Shown piece after piece: positions 21,941 to 33,001 of a stretch of 48,162 bases of DNA; positions within the stretch are counted from its first letter, which is position 1, and the number at the start of each line of letters is the position of its first letter. This stretch comes from Natronohydrobacter sp. (GTDB taxonomy: Bacteria > Pseudomonadota > Alphaproteobacteria > Rhodobacterales > Rhodobacteraceae), in contig SLDY01000049.1 in the NCBI GenBank assembly GCA_007125005.1, forward strand, positions 1 to 48,162, given 5' to 3'. The position numbers were made by a program, and so were the translations under genes. Below the pieces are notes generated by a model. That model was not told where the DNA came from. It was given only the letters and a program-made list of their open reading frames with translations, and did no database searches.

Positions 21941-22766
21941 TATCCTGTGGCGTCGCACCTTTTGTCCTGTAATACGAAATTGCCCTTGCGTCATCACGTT
22001 TTGCAAGACGCTTTCCTTCTTGATCACGAATAAGGTCATGATGATAGTAAGTTGTAGGCGGAAGTTGTAGTAAAGCTCGAAGAAGGACATGGATAAAACT
22101 GGCGTCAAACAGATCAGAGCCGCGTGTAACCTCTGTAATTCCTTGTGCTGCATCATCTACAACGACGGATAAGTGATAGCTCGTACCCATATCGCGCCTC
22201 GATAGCGCAACGTCGCCTATCTGCGTGACCATTTGATCCGGCACAATGCTGTGAAGCCCAGGATGCATAGGCCCCAACTCTGAAAAAGTGAGATGCCCCA
22301 CAAGCGAAAGGGCTTTCTGCATGTCCAGGCGTAGCGCAGAATTTGCGGTCACATCTGCCATTGATCTGCCGCGACAGAGCCCTGGATAAACAGGGCCATC
22401 AGGCCCGGAAAGTGTGACCCCCTCTTGCGGGGCTGCCAGTGCTGCACGAATGTCGGCTCGACGACAGTGGCAAGGATAGACCACCCCTAACCCAGCTAAC
22501 TTTTCCAAGGCTTGCCGGTACTCTTTAAGGCGTTCTGACTGCCGTATGACCGGCATCGCCCATGATAGTCCCAGCCAGTACAGATCATCAAAAATCTGTG
22601 CTTCGTACTCCTTACGACTGCGGGTTCTGTCAATATCCTCGATCCGCAACAGAAATCGCCCACCGCCGGCGCGCTCTGCGGCTATGAGTGCCGCGTAAGC
22701 ATGACCAAGATGAAGGGGACCTGTTGGCGAAGGTGCAAACCGCGTGACTTTTTCCTCACGCAGCAT
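21918..22766 (-). CDS. gluQ: Glutamyl-Q tRNA(Asp) synthetase
   Basis: GluRS paralogue lacking the anticodon-binding half, 282 residues. It attaches glutamate to queuosine at position 34 of tRNA-Asp. HIGH reads HLGH in [13 protein letters not shown], the zinc site is CHCRRADI with YPGLCRG, and the KMSKS-like loop is [10 protein letters not shown]. The ATG at 22766 is chosen because GGAGGG lies 6 bases upstream inside trmFO; the frame extends further upstream but that would overlap trmFO more deeply. It is coupled to trmFO by an 11-base overlap. Confidence 0.94.
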
Positions 22767-24108
22767 TGCGTCCCTCAGCGCGGAGCCAGTCAGTGTATGC
22801 CGCTTTTGCACGATCTGTATAGGCTTTGTAGCGGTCACGCCGCCCCCGCCGACCACCTTTGGCGTCAATCGGCGGAAACAGCCCGAAATTTACATTCATA
22901 GGCTGGAAGGTCTTAGCCTCTGCCCCTCCAGTAATGTGGTGCACAAGGGCCCCCATTGCAGTATCGCGTGGAGGCGGCGCTACCGATAAGCCCAGAACGG
23001 ACCCAGCAGCCAAGCGACCAGCAAGCAAACCCATCGCAGCGGATTCCACATAACCTTCAACACCTGTAATCTGACCAGCAAATCGAATATGTGGCTTTGA
23101 ACGAAGCCGCAATTGATCATCGAGCAGCGTTGGTGAATTCAGAAATGTATTGCGATGAATGCCGCCAAGCCGCGCAAAAGACGCATCTTCCAGACCTGGA
23201 ATCATTTTAAAAACAGATGCTTGTGAACCATACTTCATCTTCGTCTGAAAGCCGACAATGTTGTAAAGTGTGCCCAAGGCATTATCGCGCCTTAGCTGCA
23301 CGACTGCATAAGGCTTCACATCAGGTGCATGTGGATTGGTCAAGCCTACGGGTTTCATGGGGCCGTGCCTAAGTGTCTCACGCCCACGTTCGGCCATCAC
23401 CTCAATGGGCAGGCAACCGTCAAAATAGCCAGCTGTTTCACCTTCATGAAACTCAGTTTTTTCCGCCGCGAGAAGTGCGTCGATGAATGCTTCATACTCC
23501 GCGCGTGTCATTGGACAATTGAGATATGCTTTTCGCTCTGCTTCTGTCTCGCCCTTGTCGTAGCGTGATTGAAACCACGCCTTGGACATGTCGATCGTGT
23601 CGAAATAGACAATAGGAGCGATGGCATCGAAAAAAGCTAGCGCCTCAGTGCCTGTTTCACGTGCAATCGCTTGCCCTAATGCGTCAGAAGTCAATGGGCC
23701 GGTGGCAATAATCCAATGAACGGATTCAGGCAGCGTCCGGATTTCGTCGCGAGATAGTGTAATATTGGGATGTGCGAGCAAACGTTCTGTTACCGCTCTC
23801 GCAAATTCATCGCGGTCCACTGCAAGCGCCCCACCCGCCGGTAGAGCGTGACGGTCTGCCATCTCCATGATTAGCCCAGAAGCCGCACGCATTTCCCAGT
23901 GCAAAAGCCCGACTGCGTTCTGTTCATCGTCATCTGAACGAAACGAATTGGAGCACACCATCTCTGCCAAATACTCAGTCTGATGTGCGAATGTCTGGGT
24001 TTTGGGGCGCATCTCATGCAACACGACCTGCACCCCCATATTAGCGGCTTGCCAAGCCGCTTCTGATCCGGCCATTCCGCCGCCTATAATATGAACTGGC
24101 TCTGTCAT
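22756..24108 (-). CDS. trmFO: Folate-dependent tRNA m5U54 methyltransferase
   Basis: FAD enzyme using methylenetetrahydrofolate to make ribothymidine at position 54 of the T-loop, 450 residues. The N-terminal FAD loop [39 protein letters not shown] and the C-terminal [20 protein letters not shown] are diagnostic of TrmFO rather than GidA. The start ATG at 24108 follows AAAGGG. It forms a two-gene unit with gluQRS, both acting on tRNA. A terminator directly upstream isolates it from the small gene before it, so its own promoter must lie in 24109-24170. Confidence 0.96.
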
Positions 24109-24170
24109 CTGACGCCCTTTCCTTTGGCATTCAGATAACCTCCGTGCGCGCATTAAGCAAACCGGCATAT

Positions 24171-24205
24171 AAAAAAACCGCCGTCAATGCGGAACATGAC
24201 GGCGG
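24171..24205 (-). terminator. Strong Rho-independent terminator of the 32-codon gene
   Basis: Minus-strand stem CCGCCGTCA (24197-24205 read in reverse) with TGACGGCGG and a 10-base loop, followed by seven T residues. It lies 56 bases after the stop of the small membrane-peptide gene and well before trmFO, which shows that the small region is a separate transcript. Confidence 0.9.
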
Positions 24206-24260
24206 CAGGGAAGGTCAGGCCAGGGCGGGTTGCGAGAGCAGAGGTCTGACCTGCAGGCAG

Positions 24261-24359
24261 TCAGGCAAATAGCGGCAGATGAAGCGTTGCGAAAACCACA
24301 ACAGCAAGCGCGCCAGCAGCGGCGAGGTCTTTCCAGAACAGGGTGTTGTGGTCACGCAT
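24261..24359 (-). CDS. 32-residue membrane peptide under a LexA-type box
   Basis: A small gene below usual annotation limits. The product begins MRDHNTLFWKDLAAAG and continues as a single hydrophobic stretch to residue 32, so a short polar N-terminus is followed by one membrane segment. Support for it being real: GGAGG lies 5 bases before the ATG, a strong terminator follows, and the upstream 75 bases hold an exact GAAC-N7-GAAC and a 7/8 second copy. Size, topology and control recall SOS membrane peptides such as Caulobacter SidA (29 residues, blocks division) or E. coli TisB, but I see no sequence similarity to claim. Function is inferred only. Confidence 0.6.
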   Translation of the reverse strand: MRDHNTLFWKDLAAAGALAVVVFATLHLPLFA

Positions 24360-24378
24360 GAGAACCTCCACAGTTTAT

Positions 24379-24431
24379 GTTAGCTTAATGTTCTCATATG
24401 TCACCGCAGAAATCAAGAACATTAATGGAAC
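24379..24431 (-). promoter_or_regulatory. Tandem alphaproteobacterial LexA (SOS) box candidates
   Basis: The plus strand reads GAAC-ATTAATG-GAAC at 24417-24431, an exact match to the GTTC-N7-GTTC LexA site known from alphaproteobacteria. A second site, GTTA-GCTTAAT-GTTC at 24379-24393, matches 7 of 8 and overlaps a candidate promoter (GTGACA at 24399-24404, TAACAT at 24377-24382, 16-base spacer) that reads toward the 32-codon gene. The first box ends just before the recG stop. Confidence 0.6.
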
Positions 24432-24432
24432 A

Positions 24433-26523
24433 TTAGCCAATCGAGAGGTAACGAACTGCCTTGTCCTGCTCCATCAACCAAAGAAGCGTGCGTGCTGCCT
24501 CTCCGCGTGTGCTCCTCAACTCGGGATCAGCCTGTAAAAGTTTTCGAGCATCTCTTTGGGCCACTTCCATCAGAGCAGATTGGCGCTCCAGATCGGCAAC
24601 TCTGAACCGTGGCAAGCCAGATTGCGCAGTTCCGATCAAATCGCCTGCTCCGCGGATTATCATGTCCTCTTCGGCGATCCGAAACCCATCCTCTGTATCG
24701 CGCAGAAGTTTCAAGCGTCGTGCCGCGGTTTCGCCAAGAGGTGCTTCATACATCAGCAAGCATGTAGACGCCGCGGCACCGCGTCCGACGCGACCGCGCA
24801 ACTGGTGAAGCTGTGCAAGACCGAAACTTTCGGCGCGTTCTATCACCATGATCGAAGCGTTGGGTACATTTACGCCCACCTCGATGACGGTCGTTGCAAC
24901 AAGAACCTTGGTTTCGCCTTTCACGAACCTCGCCATGGCGGCATCTTTCTCGCCAGAAGAAAGCTGCCCGTGTACGAGCCCGACCTGATTTTCACCCAAG
25001 GCTGCCCGCAAATGTTTGTAGCGCGCTTCGGCTGCTGTCAAATCGCTAAGCTCGGATTCCTCGACCAAAGGGCAAACCCAATAGGCCTGACGACCTTCTG
25101 ATATTGCCTCACGCAAATGCGCGACGACCTCTGCCATGCGAGATGTCGAGACGAGTGCAGTTTGGACTGGTTGCCGTCCGGGCGGTTTCTCATCAAGCAC
25201 AGAGACTTCCATGTCGCCATATTGGGCAAGGGCAAGAGAGCGTGGGATCGGTGTTGCGGTCATTACCAGAACATCCGCGCCTTCTCCTTTGGCTGAAAGC
25301 GCAGCTCTTTGCGCGACACCAAAACGATGCTGCTCATCTATGACGGCAAGTCGCAGATCAGCGAATTCAACACCCTTCTGAAACACCGCATGTGTGCCTA
25401 CCACTATTTTGCTGTGTCCTGCTGCCAGATCGGCCAGTTTACGTTCTCGCTCGGCACCTTTGTCACGCCCCGTAAGCAAATCGAGCTGAACCCCAGCAGC
25501 CCGGACCAAAGGCAAAAGACTGTCATGATGCTGACGCGCCAGAATCTCGGTTGGAGCCATCATGACACCCTGCCCGCCCGCTTCGACAGCGATCAGAAGT
25601 GCCATCAATGCGACAAGCGTTTTTCCAGCGCCGACATCGCCCTGCAACAGTCGGTTCATGCGCATTGGGCCTGCCATATCGGCTGCAATTTCGGCGATAG
25701 CCCTGCTTTGGGCGTTGGTTGGTGTATAGTTCAGGGCAGCTAGCACTTTGGTCTGTAGTTGACCTGTCTGAACGCTGCTGCGCCCTGACTTGCGTCGCGC
25801 GCGCGAGCGTGCAAGCGCTAGGGTTAATTGATGCGCGAACAGCTCGTCATAAGCAAGCCTCGCTCGCGCCGGAGCATTTGCGCTCAGATCAGCCAAGCTT
25901 CCCGGAGTATGTGCTTTCACAACGGCTTCGCGCCAAGTTGGCCACGCTTCACGCACTTTCAATGCGGGATCTATCCATTCGGGCAGATCGGGCGCCCGCT
26001 CAAGCGCGCCTCTAACGGCCTTTCCCATCAGTTTCGCTGTGATCCCGGCGCATAAGGCATACACAGGCTCAGCCTGCGGCAAATGAACCGCATCCTCGAG
26101 GCGTAGGATATGATCGGGATGAACCATCTGTGCGATGCCATCGAAAAGCTCGACCTTGCCGGAGACGAGACGCCTTTGGCCGGTAGGGAGCGTTTTTTTC
26201 AAGTAATCTCCATGCGCGTGGAAGAAGACAAGTTGCCACTCCATGCGTGCGTCACGCACGATGATTCGGTAAGGTTTGCCACGACTGCGCGGCGGATGAT
26301 GTGGCCCGATCACTACATCGACTGTGGCTGTTGCTGGTAGATCCAAACCAAAAAGAGTATTTCGGCGCACCCGGTCGATAACATTATGCGGCAGGTGAAA
26401 CAGAAGATCACGCGGCTTCTCTATCTGCAAGCCGTTGAAATACGATGTAGTTTTTTTCCCGATACCTTCAATGCTCTCCAAACTCGCAAAAAGCGTAAAC
26501 AGGATTTCTGGCCGCGCGGCCAT
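24433..26523 (-). CDS. recG: ATP-dependent DNA helicase RecG
   Basis: Superfamily 2 helicase that remodels stalled forks and branches, 696 residues. An N-terminal wedge/OB domain (about 60-150) is followed by Walker A in GDVGAGKTLVALMAL, motif II as DEQH (AVIDEQHRFGVAQ), TATPIPRSLALAQYGDM, and the second RecA domain with GRVGRGAAAS and the TRG-like region. It starts one base after the ligA stop (TGA-C-ATG), so the two are coupled. Its stop abuts a LexA-type box that belongs to the downstream small gene. Confidence 0.97.
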   Translation of the reverse strand: MAARPEILFTLFASLESIEGIGKKTTSYFNGLQIEKPRDLLFHLPHNVIDRVRRNTLFGLDLPATATVDVVIGPHHPPRSRGKPYRIIVRDARMEWQLVFFHAHGDYLKKTLPTGQRRLVSGKVELFDGIAQMVHPDHILRLEDAVHLPQAEPVYALCAGITAKLMGKAVRGALERAPDLPEWIDPALKVREAWPTWREAVVKAHTPGSLADLSANAPARARLAYDELFAHQLTLALARSRARRKSGRSSVQTGQLQTKVLAALNYTPTNAQSRAIAEIAADMAGPMRMNRLLQGDVGAGKTLVALMALLIAVEAGGQGVMMAPTEILARQHHDSLLPLVRAAGVQLDLLTGRDKGAERERKLADLAAGHSKIVVGTHAVFQKGVEFADLRLAVIDEQHRFGVAQRAALSAKGEGADVLVMTATPIPRSLALAQYGDMEVSVLDEKPPGRQPVQTALVSTSRMAEVVAHLREAISEGRQAYWVCPLVEESELSDLTAAEARYKHLRAALGENQVGLVHGQLSSGEKDAAMARFVKGETKVLVATTVIEVGVNVPNASIMVIERAESFGLAQLHQLRGRVGRGAAASTCLLMYEAPLGETAARRLKLLRDTEDGFRIAEEDMIIRGAGDLIGTAQSGLPRFRVADLERQSALMEVAQRDARKLLQADPELRSTRGEAARTLLWLMEQDKAVRYLSIG

Positions 26524-29975: not shown

Positions 29976-31118
29976 ATGCCCTATGATCCGATCCTGAATT
30001 CGCTTGGCCTGCCCAAACCCGCCGCAGAAACACGCGTGGTCGTGGCTATGTCGGGGGGCGTCGATAGCTCTGTCGTTGCGGCAGAGTTGGCGCGTGAGGG
30101 ATATGATGTCGTGGGTGTGACACTGCAACTATATGACCACGGGGCAGCGCTGGCGAAGAAGGGGGCATGCTGTGCCGGACGCGATATTCATGATGCGCGC
30201 CGCGTGGCTGAAGAAATGGGTTTTCCCCATTATGTTCTGGATTACGAATCGCATTTCCGCGAATCTGTGATCGACGAGTTCGCCGACGCTTATCTTGCGG
30301 GTGCTACACCTGTTCCGTGCATAAGATGTAATGAGCGCGTCAAATTCCGCGACCTGCTGGAAACAGCCCGTGATCTCGGGGCAGATTGCATGGCAACCGG
30401 GCACTATATTCAGCGCAAGATGGGTCCAGCCGGCCCGGAATTACATCGTGCCGCTGACCCAGTTCGCGACCAGAGTTATTTCTTGTTTTCCACGACGCGC
30501 GAGCAGCTCGAGTATTTGCGGTTCCCGCTTGGCCATCTGGAAACCAAAGCAGAAACACGCGCACTTGCTGCGCGGCATGGTTTAAGTGTGGCAGACAAAC
30601 CTGACAGTCAGGATATCTGTTTTGTGCCAGACGGAAACTACGCACGCGTGATCGAGAAACTGCGCCCCGGTGCAGCCGATCCCGGTGATATTGTTGATCT
30701 TGAGGGGCACGTTCTGGGACAACATCATGGCGTCATTCATTATACGATCGGTCAGCGCAAAGGGCTGGGAATCGGTGGCCTTTCCGAACCGCTTTATGTT
30801 GTTCGCCTAGATCCTGAATCGCGCTGTGTAGTTGTTGGCCCAAAGGCGGCACTCGCTACCCGCCGCGTTCCCATACGCGAGATCAACTGGCTTGGTGACG
30901 CCGCTTTCACTTCAAGAACGGAATGGGAACTGGAGGTAAAGCTTCGCTCGACCCGTCCACCTGCCCCGGCAGTTATTCGGCCGATTTCGGAACAGGAAGC
31001 AGAGGTGGAGTTACTAAACCCCGAAGAAGGGGTCAGCCCGGGCCAAGCCTGCGTGTTCTATGCGCCGGAGGGTACGCGTGTATTTGGCGGTGGCTGGATC
31101 TGGAAAGGCCGCAGATAA
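29976..31118 (+). CDS. mnmA: tRNA-uridine 2-sulfurtransferase MnmA
   Basis: Makes 2-thiouridine at wobble position 34 of tRNA-Lys, -Glu and -Gln, 380 residues. The PP-loop is AMSGGVDSS. Catalytic cysteines are expected in [13 protein letters not shown] and [10 protein letters not shown], and both are present. GGAG lies 7 bases upstream of the ATG. The first 20 residues precede the domain and vary in the family. It is divergent from sciP. Confidence 0.97.
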
Positions 31119-32165: not shown

Positions 32166-33001
32166 TAGATGACCTTCCGCCCTTACGCGATGTGATCCGC
32201 GCATATGAGTTGCGCGCCAAAAAAAGTTTTGGTCAGAATTTTCTGCTCGATCTCAATCTTACCGCCAGAATTGCGAGGGCTGCGGGGGATCTGACAAAGA
32301 CAGATGTTCTGGAAATCGGTCCGGGTCCGGGGGGGCTAACGCGCGGGCTTCTGGCCGAGGGCGCGCGTAAGGTTTTGGCAATCGAGAAGGACGTGCGATG
32401 TCTGCCTGCGTTGAAAGAAATCGCGACAGCCTATCCGGGCCGACTGCAGATCATCAGTGGCGATGCTCTCGATGTGGATCCTCTGGAACACCTGACATCT
32501 CCTGTAAAAGTGGTGGCAAATCTTCCCTACAACGTGGGCACGGAGTTGCTGATCCGCTGGATGACACCAACAAACTGGCCACCGTTCTGGGAAAGCCTAA
32601 CTTTGATGTTCCAGCGCGAAGTAGCTGAACGGATTGTAGCGAGGCCAGGTTCCAAGGCGTATGGCAGGCTGGCGATAATGGTGCAGTGGCGTGCAGACGC
32701 AAGGATTGTTCTGAACCTACCCCCCGAAGCCTTTACACCGCCACCCAAGGTGAGTTCTGCCGTTGTTCATATAACGCGCCTCCCTGCCCCACGATACCCC
32801 GCTGATCCTCGAATATTGGAACGAGTTGTCGCCGCCGGCTTCAACCAGCGAAGAAAGATGCTGCGCGCTAGTCTAAGGGGACAGCACTCTAATATTGAGG
32901 CGGTATTGGAAAAGGCCGGTATCCGGCCAACAGCGCGTGCAGAGGAAATCGAGCTTGAGGCATGGTGCTCACTGGCGCGTGTGCTTCAGGCTGCAGCATA
33001 G
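32162..33001 (+). CDS. rsmA: 16S rRNA A1518/A1519 dimethyltransferase
   Basis: KsgA. Dimethylates two adjacent adenines in helix 45 of 16S rRNA during 30S maturation, 279 residues. SAM motif [13 protein letters not shown], the catalytic NLPY in [11 protein letters not shown], and the N-terminal [11 protein letters not shown] are visible. Its ATG lies inside the pdxA stop overlap, so translation is coupled. Confidence 0.97.

Follow-up and report, generated by a model that had tools for sequence, protein, structure and literature searches.

A conserved small membrane peptide gene with LexA boxes behind recG in Rhodobacteraceae, a candidate SOS division inhibitor

A short gene located directly behind recG in Natronohydrobacter sp. 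encodes a 32-residue peptide with a single predicted helix and belongs to a family that is core, mostly single-copy, chromosomal, and vertically inherited in Rhodobacteraceae. That the gene is real and conserved is close to certain, and its product is, on balance, probably the SOS division inhibitor of this family, with an action resembling that of SidA of Caulobacter crescentus. The gene cassette occupies positions 24171-24431 of the minus strand of the window, which here means the whole stretch of 48,162 nucleotides that was analysed (Table 1). The preliminary description of this DNA had claimed a LexA box, a 7/8 copy of it, a GGAGG site, the open reading frame (ORF), and a terminator, and inspection of the sequence located every one of these parts in place on that strand. 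Its proposal that an SOS-type gene for a small membrane peptide is transcribed here on its own has strong support from the recurrence of the cassette across the family and from coding constraint, and its likening of the product to SidA or TisB is by analogy.

Table 1. Features of the peptide gene cassette and its neighbours (positions in the window).
Feature	Position	Strand	Remarks
LexA box 1, GTTCcattaatGTTC = GTTCCATTAATGTTC	24417..24431	-	Exact GTTCN7GTTC; right behind the recG stop codon
Putative -35, TTGATT	24411..24416	-	Read from sequence; abuts box 1; TTTACA or TTGACN in relatives
LexA-like site 2, GAACattaagcTAAC = GAACATTAAGCTAAC	24379..24393	-	7/8 match to the inverse box; starts 38 bp past box 1 start; over the putative -10/start region
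Ribosome binding site, GGAGG	24365..24369	-	5 nt ahead of ATG; GGAG-type in nearly all relatives
ORF, 32-aa peptide MRDHNTLFWKDLAAAGALAVVVFATLHLPLFA	24261..24359	-	ATG at 24359, codons 24359-24264, TGA 24263-24261
Short 3'UTR element	24212..24260	-	CTGCCTGC immediately past the stop, then AGGTCAG...CTGACCT hairpin with C-rich loop
Intrinsic terminator, 9-bp stem CCGCCGTCA/TGACGGCGG	24171..24205	-	Stem arms 24205-24197 / 24186-24178; 10-nt loop; T7 24177-24171
recG, upstream neighbour	24433..26523	-	Pfam RecG_wedge, RecG_dom3_C, DEAD, Helicase_C; stop 24435-24433; synteny conserved
trmFO (GidA family), downstream neighbour in Natronohydrobacter	22756..24168	-	Pfam PF01134

In the window, 17 nt separate TTGATT from site 2, and the leader measures 19 nt from site 2 to the ATG, with a putative transcript start. 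The stretches adjoining the box at -35 in relatives read GTTCTTTAC and GTTCTTGAC, and in their typical promoter a TTTAC/TTGAC -35 abuts box 1 while box 2 overlaps the predicted -10 and start. A 36-aa version of the peptide beginning at a GTG codon was rejected as unlikely, since this codon overlaps the GGAGG. The longest trmFO frame, which is the one given in Table 1, begins about 20 codons ahead of the likely start of that gene, where the terminator of the peptide has only just ended.

The distribution of the peptide was assessed with a profile built from 26 members, which matched 349 of 395 Rhodobacteraceae genomes in a set holding about one genome per genus; the window peptide itself matched the family profile at E=2.7e-12. 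When the peptide alone was searched against 198 family genomes, the matches were weak and were confirmed by their context: 25 lie directly after recG with an exact box, one further locus (L032) carries the peptide and two exact boxes with no recG adjoining, and three other retrieved matches were unrelated long frames. A DNA-only promoter pattern (GTTCN7GTTCTTTACN15TGAGAACAA), searched in species genomes, was found in at least 118 places, and among the matches listed, 80 out of 80 follow the end of recG and precede a family peptide. The peptide start lies 66-131 nt past the box start in these 80 loci (the start being misassigned in L101), and where a title includes a taxon of this rank, it is Rhodobacteraceae or Rhodobacterales. 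Lower-ranked profile matches, among those listed, likewise present the box, the second site, and recG (20/20 for each). All 13 genomes of Natronohydrobacter have an exact box close to the recG stop codon as well as a 32-37-residue peptide, and trmFO was seen downstream in 12 of the 13 relatives, so that the frame and box do lie between recG and trmFO in the genus, as the preliminary description had suggested checking. Among genera, the downstream neighbours vary and recG is the constant one.

Twenty profile-negative genomes were also examined, 15 of which had readable recG ends; 11 of these 15 keep the box and a divergent membrane peptide, and the other four show neither. These four loci (L203, L206, L208, and L210, from genomes G109, G056, G008, and G017, respectively) lack both elements behind recG, and the gene may have been lost or moved there. 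Co-loss of the gene with lexA was not seen, as three of the four genomes retain lexA. In two loci (L212 and L213), the box has the GAACN7GAAC orientation. Neither of the failures foreseen in the preliminary description that could be computed appeared: relatives retain the frame, and no locus with the peptide but lacking a box turned up. Because the L032 peptide still has two exact boxes away from recG, the operator and peptide appear to have moved as a unit, and the boxes belong to the peptide rather than to recG. This locus (G131:C67, ~446-649) lies beside an apparent EamA-type transporter gene. The peptide gene was not found in the phage and plasmid collections searched, and two profiles retrieved no convincing homologue outside the family; candidate distant homologues elsewhere in the class were rejected, since the matches look like generic membrane helices and lack LexA boxes.

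The peptide ORF is under purifying selection. Differences between close pairs at codon positions 1, 2, and 3 numbered 290, 138, and 598, respectively, and pN was below pS in each of the 13 disjoint pairs, as it was in each of the 91 pairs within the genus set, which includes the window. In addition, a GGAG-type site is found at a normal distance from the start codon in nearly all loci.

The motif GTTCN7GTTC is that of the alphaproteobacterial LexA (PMC3323433), and three exact boxes occur in the window against an expectation of 0.99, a value lower than the approximately 1.5 given in the preliminary description. As one such box is expected by chance, the box alone is weak evidence and proves nothing. 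The two further exact boxes (30916-30930 and 32754-32768) are both within long open frames and are probably chance occurrences. The genomic context is more informative: the 15-mer of box 1 is identical to that in front of recA of the same genome, lexA has a box (GTTCTATCAATGTTC) just ahead of its start, and the uvrA, imuB, dnaE2-like, and phrB-like (photolyase-like) genes also carry boxes. Gene names were read here from translated starts, and lexA alone was identified by its Pfam family. Probable SOS boxes were located for recA at G000:C101:15236-15250 (L065), uvrA at G000:C65:6899-6913 (L019), imuB at G000:C53:29761-29775 (L016), and the photolyase-like gene at G000:C147:11407-11421 (L069). 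Since lexA, recA, and other SOS genes carry this motif, box 1 counts as a LexA box in this genome. The match to the recA 15-mer, the coding constraint, and the recurrence of the whole cassette after recG (box, site 2, ribosome binding site, peptide, and terminator) place it beyond chance, in agreement with the earlier view that a box in this position is not accidental.

As expected of a member of the LexA regulon, the peptide gene has the GTTCN7GTTC operator in common with lexA and recA, and the operator is kept alongside the gene in relatives. Furthermore, in 35 loci picked without reference to the second site, site 2 begins 35-39 bp past the start of box 1 in 34 and at exactly 38 bp in 28; the same holds in the 80 pattern-found loci, although their search pattern already contained half of the site. 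LexA binding and induction are inferred from the promoter sequences, and control of the peptide gene by LexA appears very probable. Two LexA dimers per promoter would repress it tightly and, given a strong -35, let expression rise steeply upon induction.

The usual peptide has 40 residues (MxxQIKxxxxRSxxTLLQDAxGAxALxVMLVxxLHLPGLx) within a family range of 31-45; the genus form has a shorter N-terminus, with mostly 32-33 aa, and the Paracoccus form has 31 aa. Among 52 forty-residue members, D19 and G22 are present in all 52, L26 and L34 in 51, and P37 in 50; the window peptide has Ala in the conserved Gly column. Residues 2-17 are amphipathic, with a hydrophobic moment of 1.24 compared to 0.76 in shuffles and K6 and R11 as usual residues, and residues 20-34 are hydrophobic and uncharged, the moment of the membrane helix being low (0.31). 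AlphaFold models consist of one helix, spanning residues 4-31 in the window peptide (pLDDT 85) and 2-39 in a relative (pLDDT 83). A single membrane helix would thus follow the amphipathic N-terminus, and an N-in, C-out topology is suggested by the positive residues preceding the helix, although residues 1-19 carry a mean net charge of just +0.2. The invariance of D19 and G22 and the near-invariance of L26, L34, and P37, together with the N-terminal moment, points to specific intramembrane binding. None of the families catalogued in Pfam, NCBIfam, or PADLOC fits the peptide, with sporadic weak matches in Pfam (one, E 0.09) and PHROGs (a few, E 0.009 or weaker). The SulA profile (PF03846) matched nothing in the peptide family, and SulA was not found in the genus.

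A mechanism compatible with these features can be proposed. In undamaged cells, LexA dimers on the two sites 38 bp apart would clamp the promoter, and upon damage RecA would trigger LexA self-cleavage, the strong promoter then firing together with recA. The peptide would insert in the inner membrane, with a cytoplasmic amphipathic N-terminus and a helix reaching to a few residues short of the C-terminus. One helix face, formed by the Asp at the membrane entry, the Gly three residues on, small residues, and HLP near the far end, would bind a membrane partner, most likely FtsW, FtsI, or FtsN of the divisome, and division would be held until repair is done. A divisome inhibitor is favoured because predicted control, size, and topology are as in SidA and YneA, the gene belongs to the core genome, mostly as a single copy, and the genus lacks a detectable SulA, which leaves the checkpoint slot open. 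Other clades use SOS division inhibitors that are often small single-TM proteins without homology to one another, and several of these are tied to FtsW (PMC4211646, PMC13396833). The conserved intramembrane interface would nevertheless fit many partners, not only FtsW, and a simple division inhibitor leaves the conserved structured 3'UTR unexplained.

One alternative, less likely but deserving consideration, is that SOS induces the peptide as a regulator or subunit of some other membrane enzyme, such as a respiratory oxidase, transporter, protease, or sensor kinase, with no effect on the divisome. The conserved face (D19, G22, L26, L34, and P37) indicates specific binding and does not name the partner, and SOS outputs other than division exist, since LexA is wired to CckA/CtrA, c-di-GMP, and gene-transfer genes in R. 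capsulatus and D. shibae (PMC6473078). However, no co-conserved membrane enzyme gene adjoins the peptide gene, which has recG on one side and genus-dependent genes downstream, and most comparable clade-specific SOS peptides target division (PMC13396833).

LexA control, size, and a single hydrophobic helix would also fit a TisB/DinQ-like SOS peptide that depolarises the membrane and slows growth or favours persistence, probably accompanied by an RNA antitoxin; DinQ is a LexA-controlled 27-aa single-TM peptide with an antisense RNA (PMC3567139), and a structured RNA is linked to the peptide gene. This reading appears less likely, as the mRNAs of TisB and DinQ require processing and are paired with antisense RNAs, whereas here the leader is short and GGAGG lies close to the start, unlike the long, structured, processed leader of a type I toxin. 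A scan of 24000-24700 with an E. coli-type consensus found no promoter-like site on the plus strand. The helix is uncharged except for the entry Asp, its hydrophobic moment is low, and conservation extends within the membrane. In contrast to what is typical of type I toxins, nearly all genomes have the gene, mostly in one copy, it is inherited vertically, and it was not found on phages or plasmids, which makes TisB-type toxicity less likely and favours, by analogy, a SidA-like checkpoint. A mobile toxin-antitoxin system was likewise rejected, with no phage, plasmid, or PADLOC match.

The transcript downstream of the ORF is conserved as well. In most relatives, the 3'UTR has a median length of 174 nt from the stop to the terminator end; CTGCCTGCG comes just past the stop, two C-rich motifs (CTGTCCC and CTGCCTG) lie further downstream, and the terminator is conserved. 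Its outer closing stem covaries, with 88.8% of cells paired, both-side changes in 7 of 8 pairs, and 25 both-side-change cells compared to 8.0 in shuffles, and slid registers score far lower; the terminator stem also covaries in relatives. The C-rich motifs lie in loops (unpaired probability 0.75 versus 0.37 elsewhere), and TGTCCC falls in a loop closed by 5 bp in 37 of 56 cases, compared to 29% with shuffled flanks. The 3'UTRs of loci L081-L160 (e.g., L094:3938-4112 and L106:1532-1711) form a multi-branched RNA with loops CUGUCCC, CUGCCUG, and UGCCUC that ends in the terminator. In the window, the fold of the 3' region of the peptide gene beats 200 of 200 shuffles (z=-3.4), and the GGGTCAG/CTGACCC hairpin of the genus, which in the window takes the form listed in Table 1, is a reduced version of the larger structured RNA that other genera have. 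This genus hairpin has 100% of its cells paired and shows no covariation because its columns are nearly invariant. No Rfam family matches the 3'UTR. Locking of the ribosome binding site by the 3'UTR was not supported (51 of 621 site positions pair with it across 69 folded messages), and a genome-wide repeat was discarded, as pattern matches were few and near chance level.

The SOS transcript may release this structured 3' RNA as a regulator. The covarying stem, the unpaired C-rich motifs, and the conserved terminator would even be compatible with the RNA being the main product and the peptide a minor one, but this is very unlikely given the strong purifying selection on the ORF, the ribosome binding site kept in nearly all loci, and the shrinkage of the RNA to a small hairpin in the genus of the window. 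More tentatively than for the peptide itself, it is possible that throughout Rhodobacteraceae one LexA-clamped SOS transcript yields both a checkpoint peptide of a new family and a 3' RNA whose C-rich loops (CUGUCCC and CUGCCUG) regulate other mRNAs or proteins; if so, one promoter would halt division and reprogram gene expression.

That an accidental ORF lies beside an accidental LexA box, or that the box serves recG, is hardly credible despite the 0.99 exact boxes expected per window and a 2012 survey reporting LexA regulation of recG in some alphaproteobacteria (PMC3323433), since the first is ruled out by conservation (80/80 listed, 20/20, and 13/13 loci, with pN<pS throughout) and the second by the position of the box past the recG stop and its presence with the peptide, without recG, in L032.

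Rhodobacteraceae are abundant marine and freshwater bacteria, some of which serve as models for photosynthesis, gene transfer agents, and quorum sensing. The search of literature accessible without subscription found no paper on this peptide family and none naming an SOS division inhibitor for Rhodobacteraceae, and the main text of an in-silico LexA study of D. shibae makes no mention of recG or a division inhibitor (PMC6473078). The kind of peptide, a clade-specific SOS membrane peptide, is known, and the Rhodobacteraceae family is absent from the family libraries searched. This near-universal, LexA-boxed gene is therefore a testable candidate for the missing SOS division inhibitor of Rhodobacteraceae and, if the proposal is true, would add another independently evolved small membrane inhibitor, and setting it beside SidA, YneA, and SosA could reveal whether such inhibitors share FtsW as their target. 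The conserved 3' RNA constitutes a second, separate lead.

Among known systems, TisB of E. coli (TisB/IstR) is a LexA-controlled single-helix membrane peptide of less than 30 aa, a description that also likens DinQ of DinQ/AgrB (27 aa) to the peptide described here; however, both of those systems have processed leaders and antisense RNAs, whereas the Rhodobacteraceae peptide is encoded behind a short leader by a family-wide core gene. SulA of E. coli is an SOS-induced division inhibitor, the role proposed here, but it is a soluble FtsZ inhibitor (PF03846). Closer parallels are offered by YneA of Bacillus subtilis, SosA of Staphylococcus aureus, and ChiZ of Mycobacterium tuberculosis, which are clade-specific, damage-induced, small single-TM division inhibitors with predicted or shown FtsW contact (PMC13396833; PMC6851548). 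YneA acts on FtsW by its TM helix (PMC13396833) and has a LysM domain outside the membrane, whereas the Rhodobacteraceae peptide is without any outer domain and has no Pfam match. SidA of C. crescentus is a LexA-controlled inner-membrane peptide of 29 aa that acts on FtsW/FtsN (PMC4211646), and sidA has an early, strong SOS promoter (PMC12700426). Likened by description, SidA and the present peptide are both LexA-box-controlled, with a single TM segment in about 30 residues (a topology predicted from sequence in our case) and both from the class Alphaproteobacteria. In contrast to SidA, the peptide described here is a Rhodobacteraceae-restricted one of 31-45 aa encoded after recG, and the two-operator promoter and structured 3'UTR of its gene are described here for the family.
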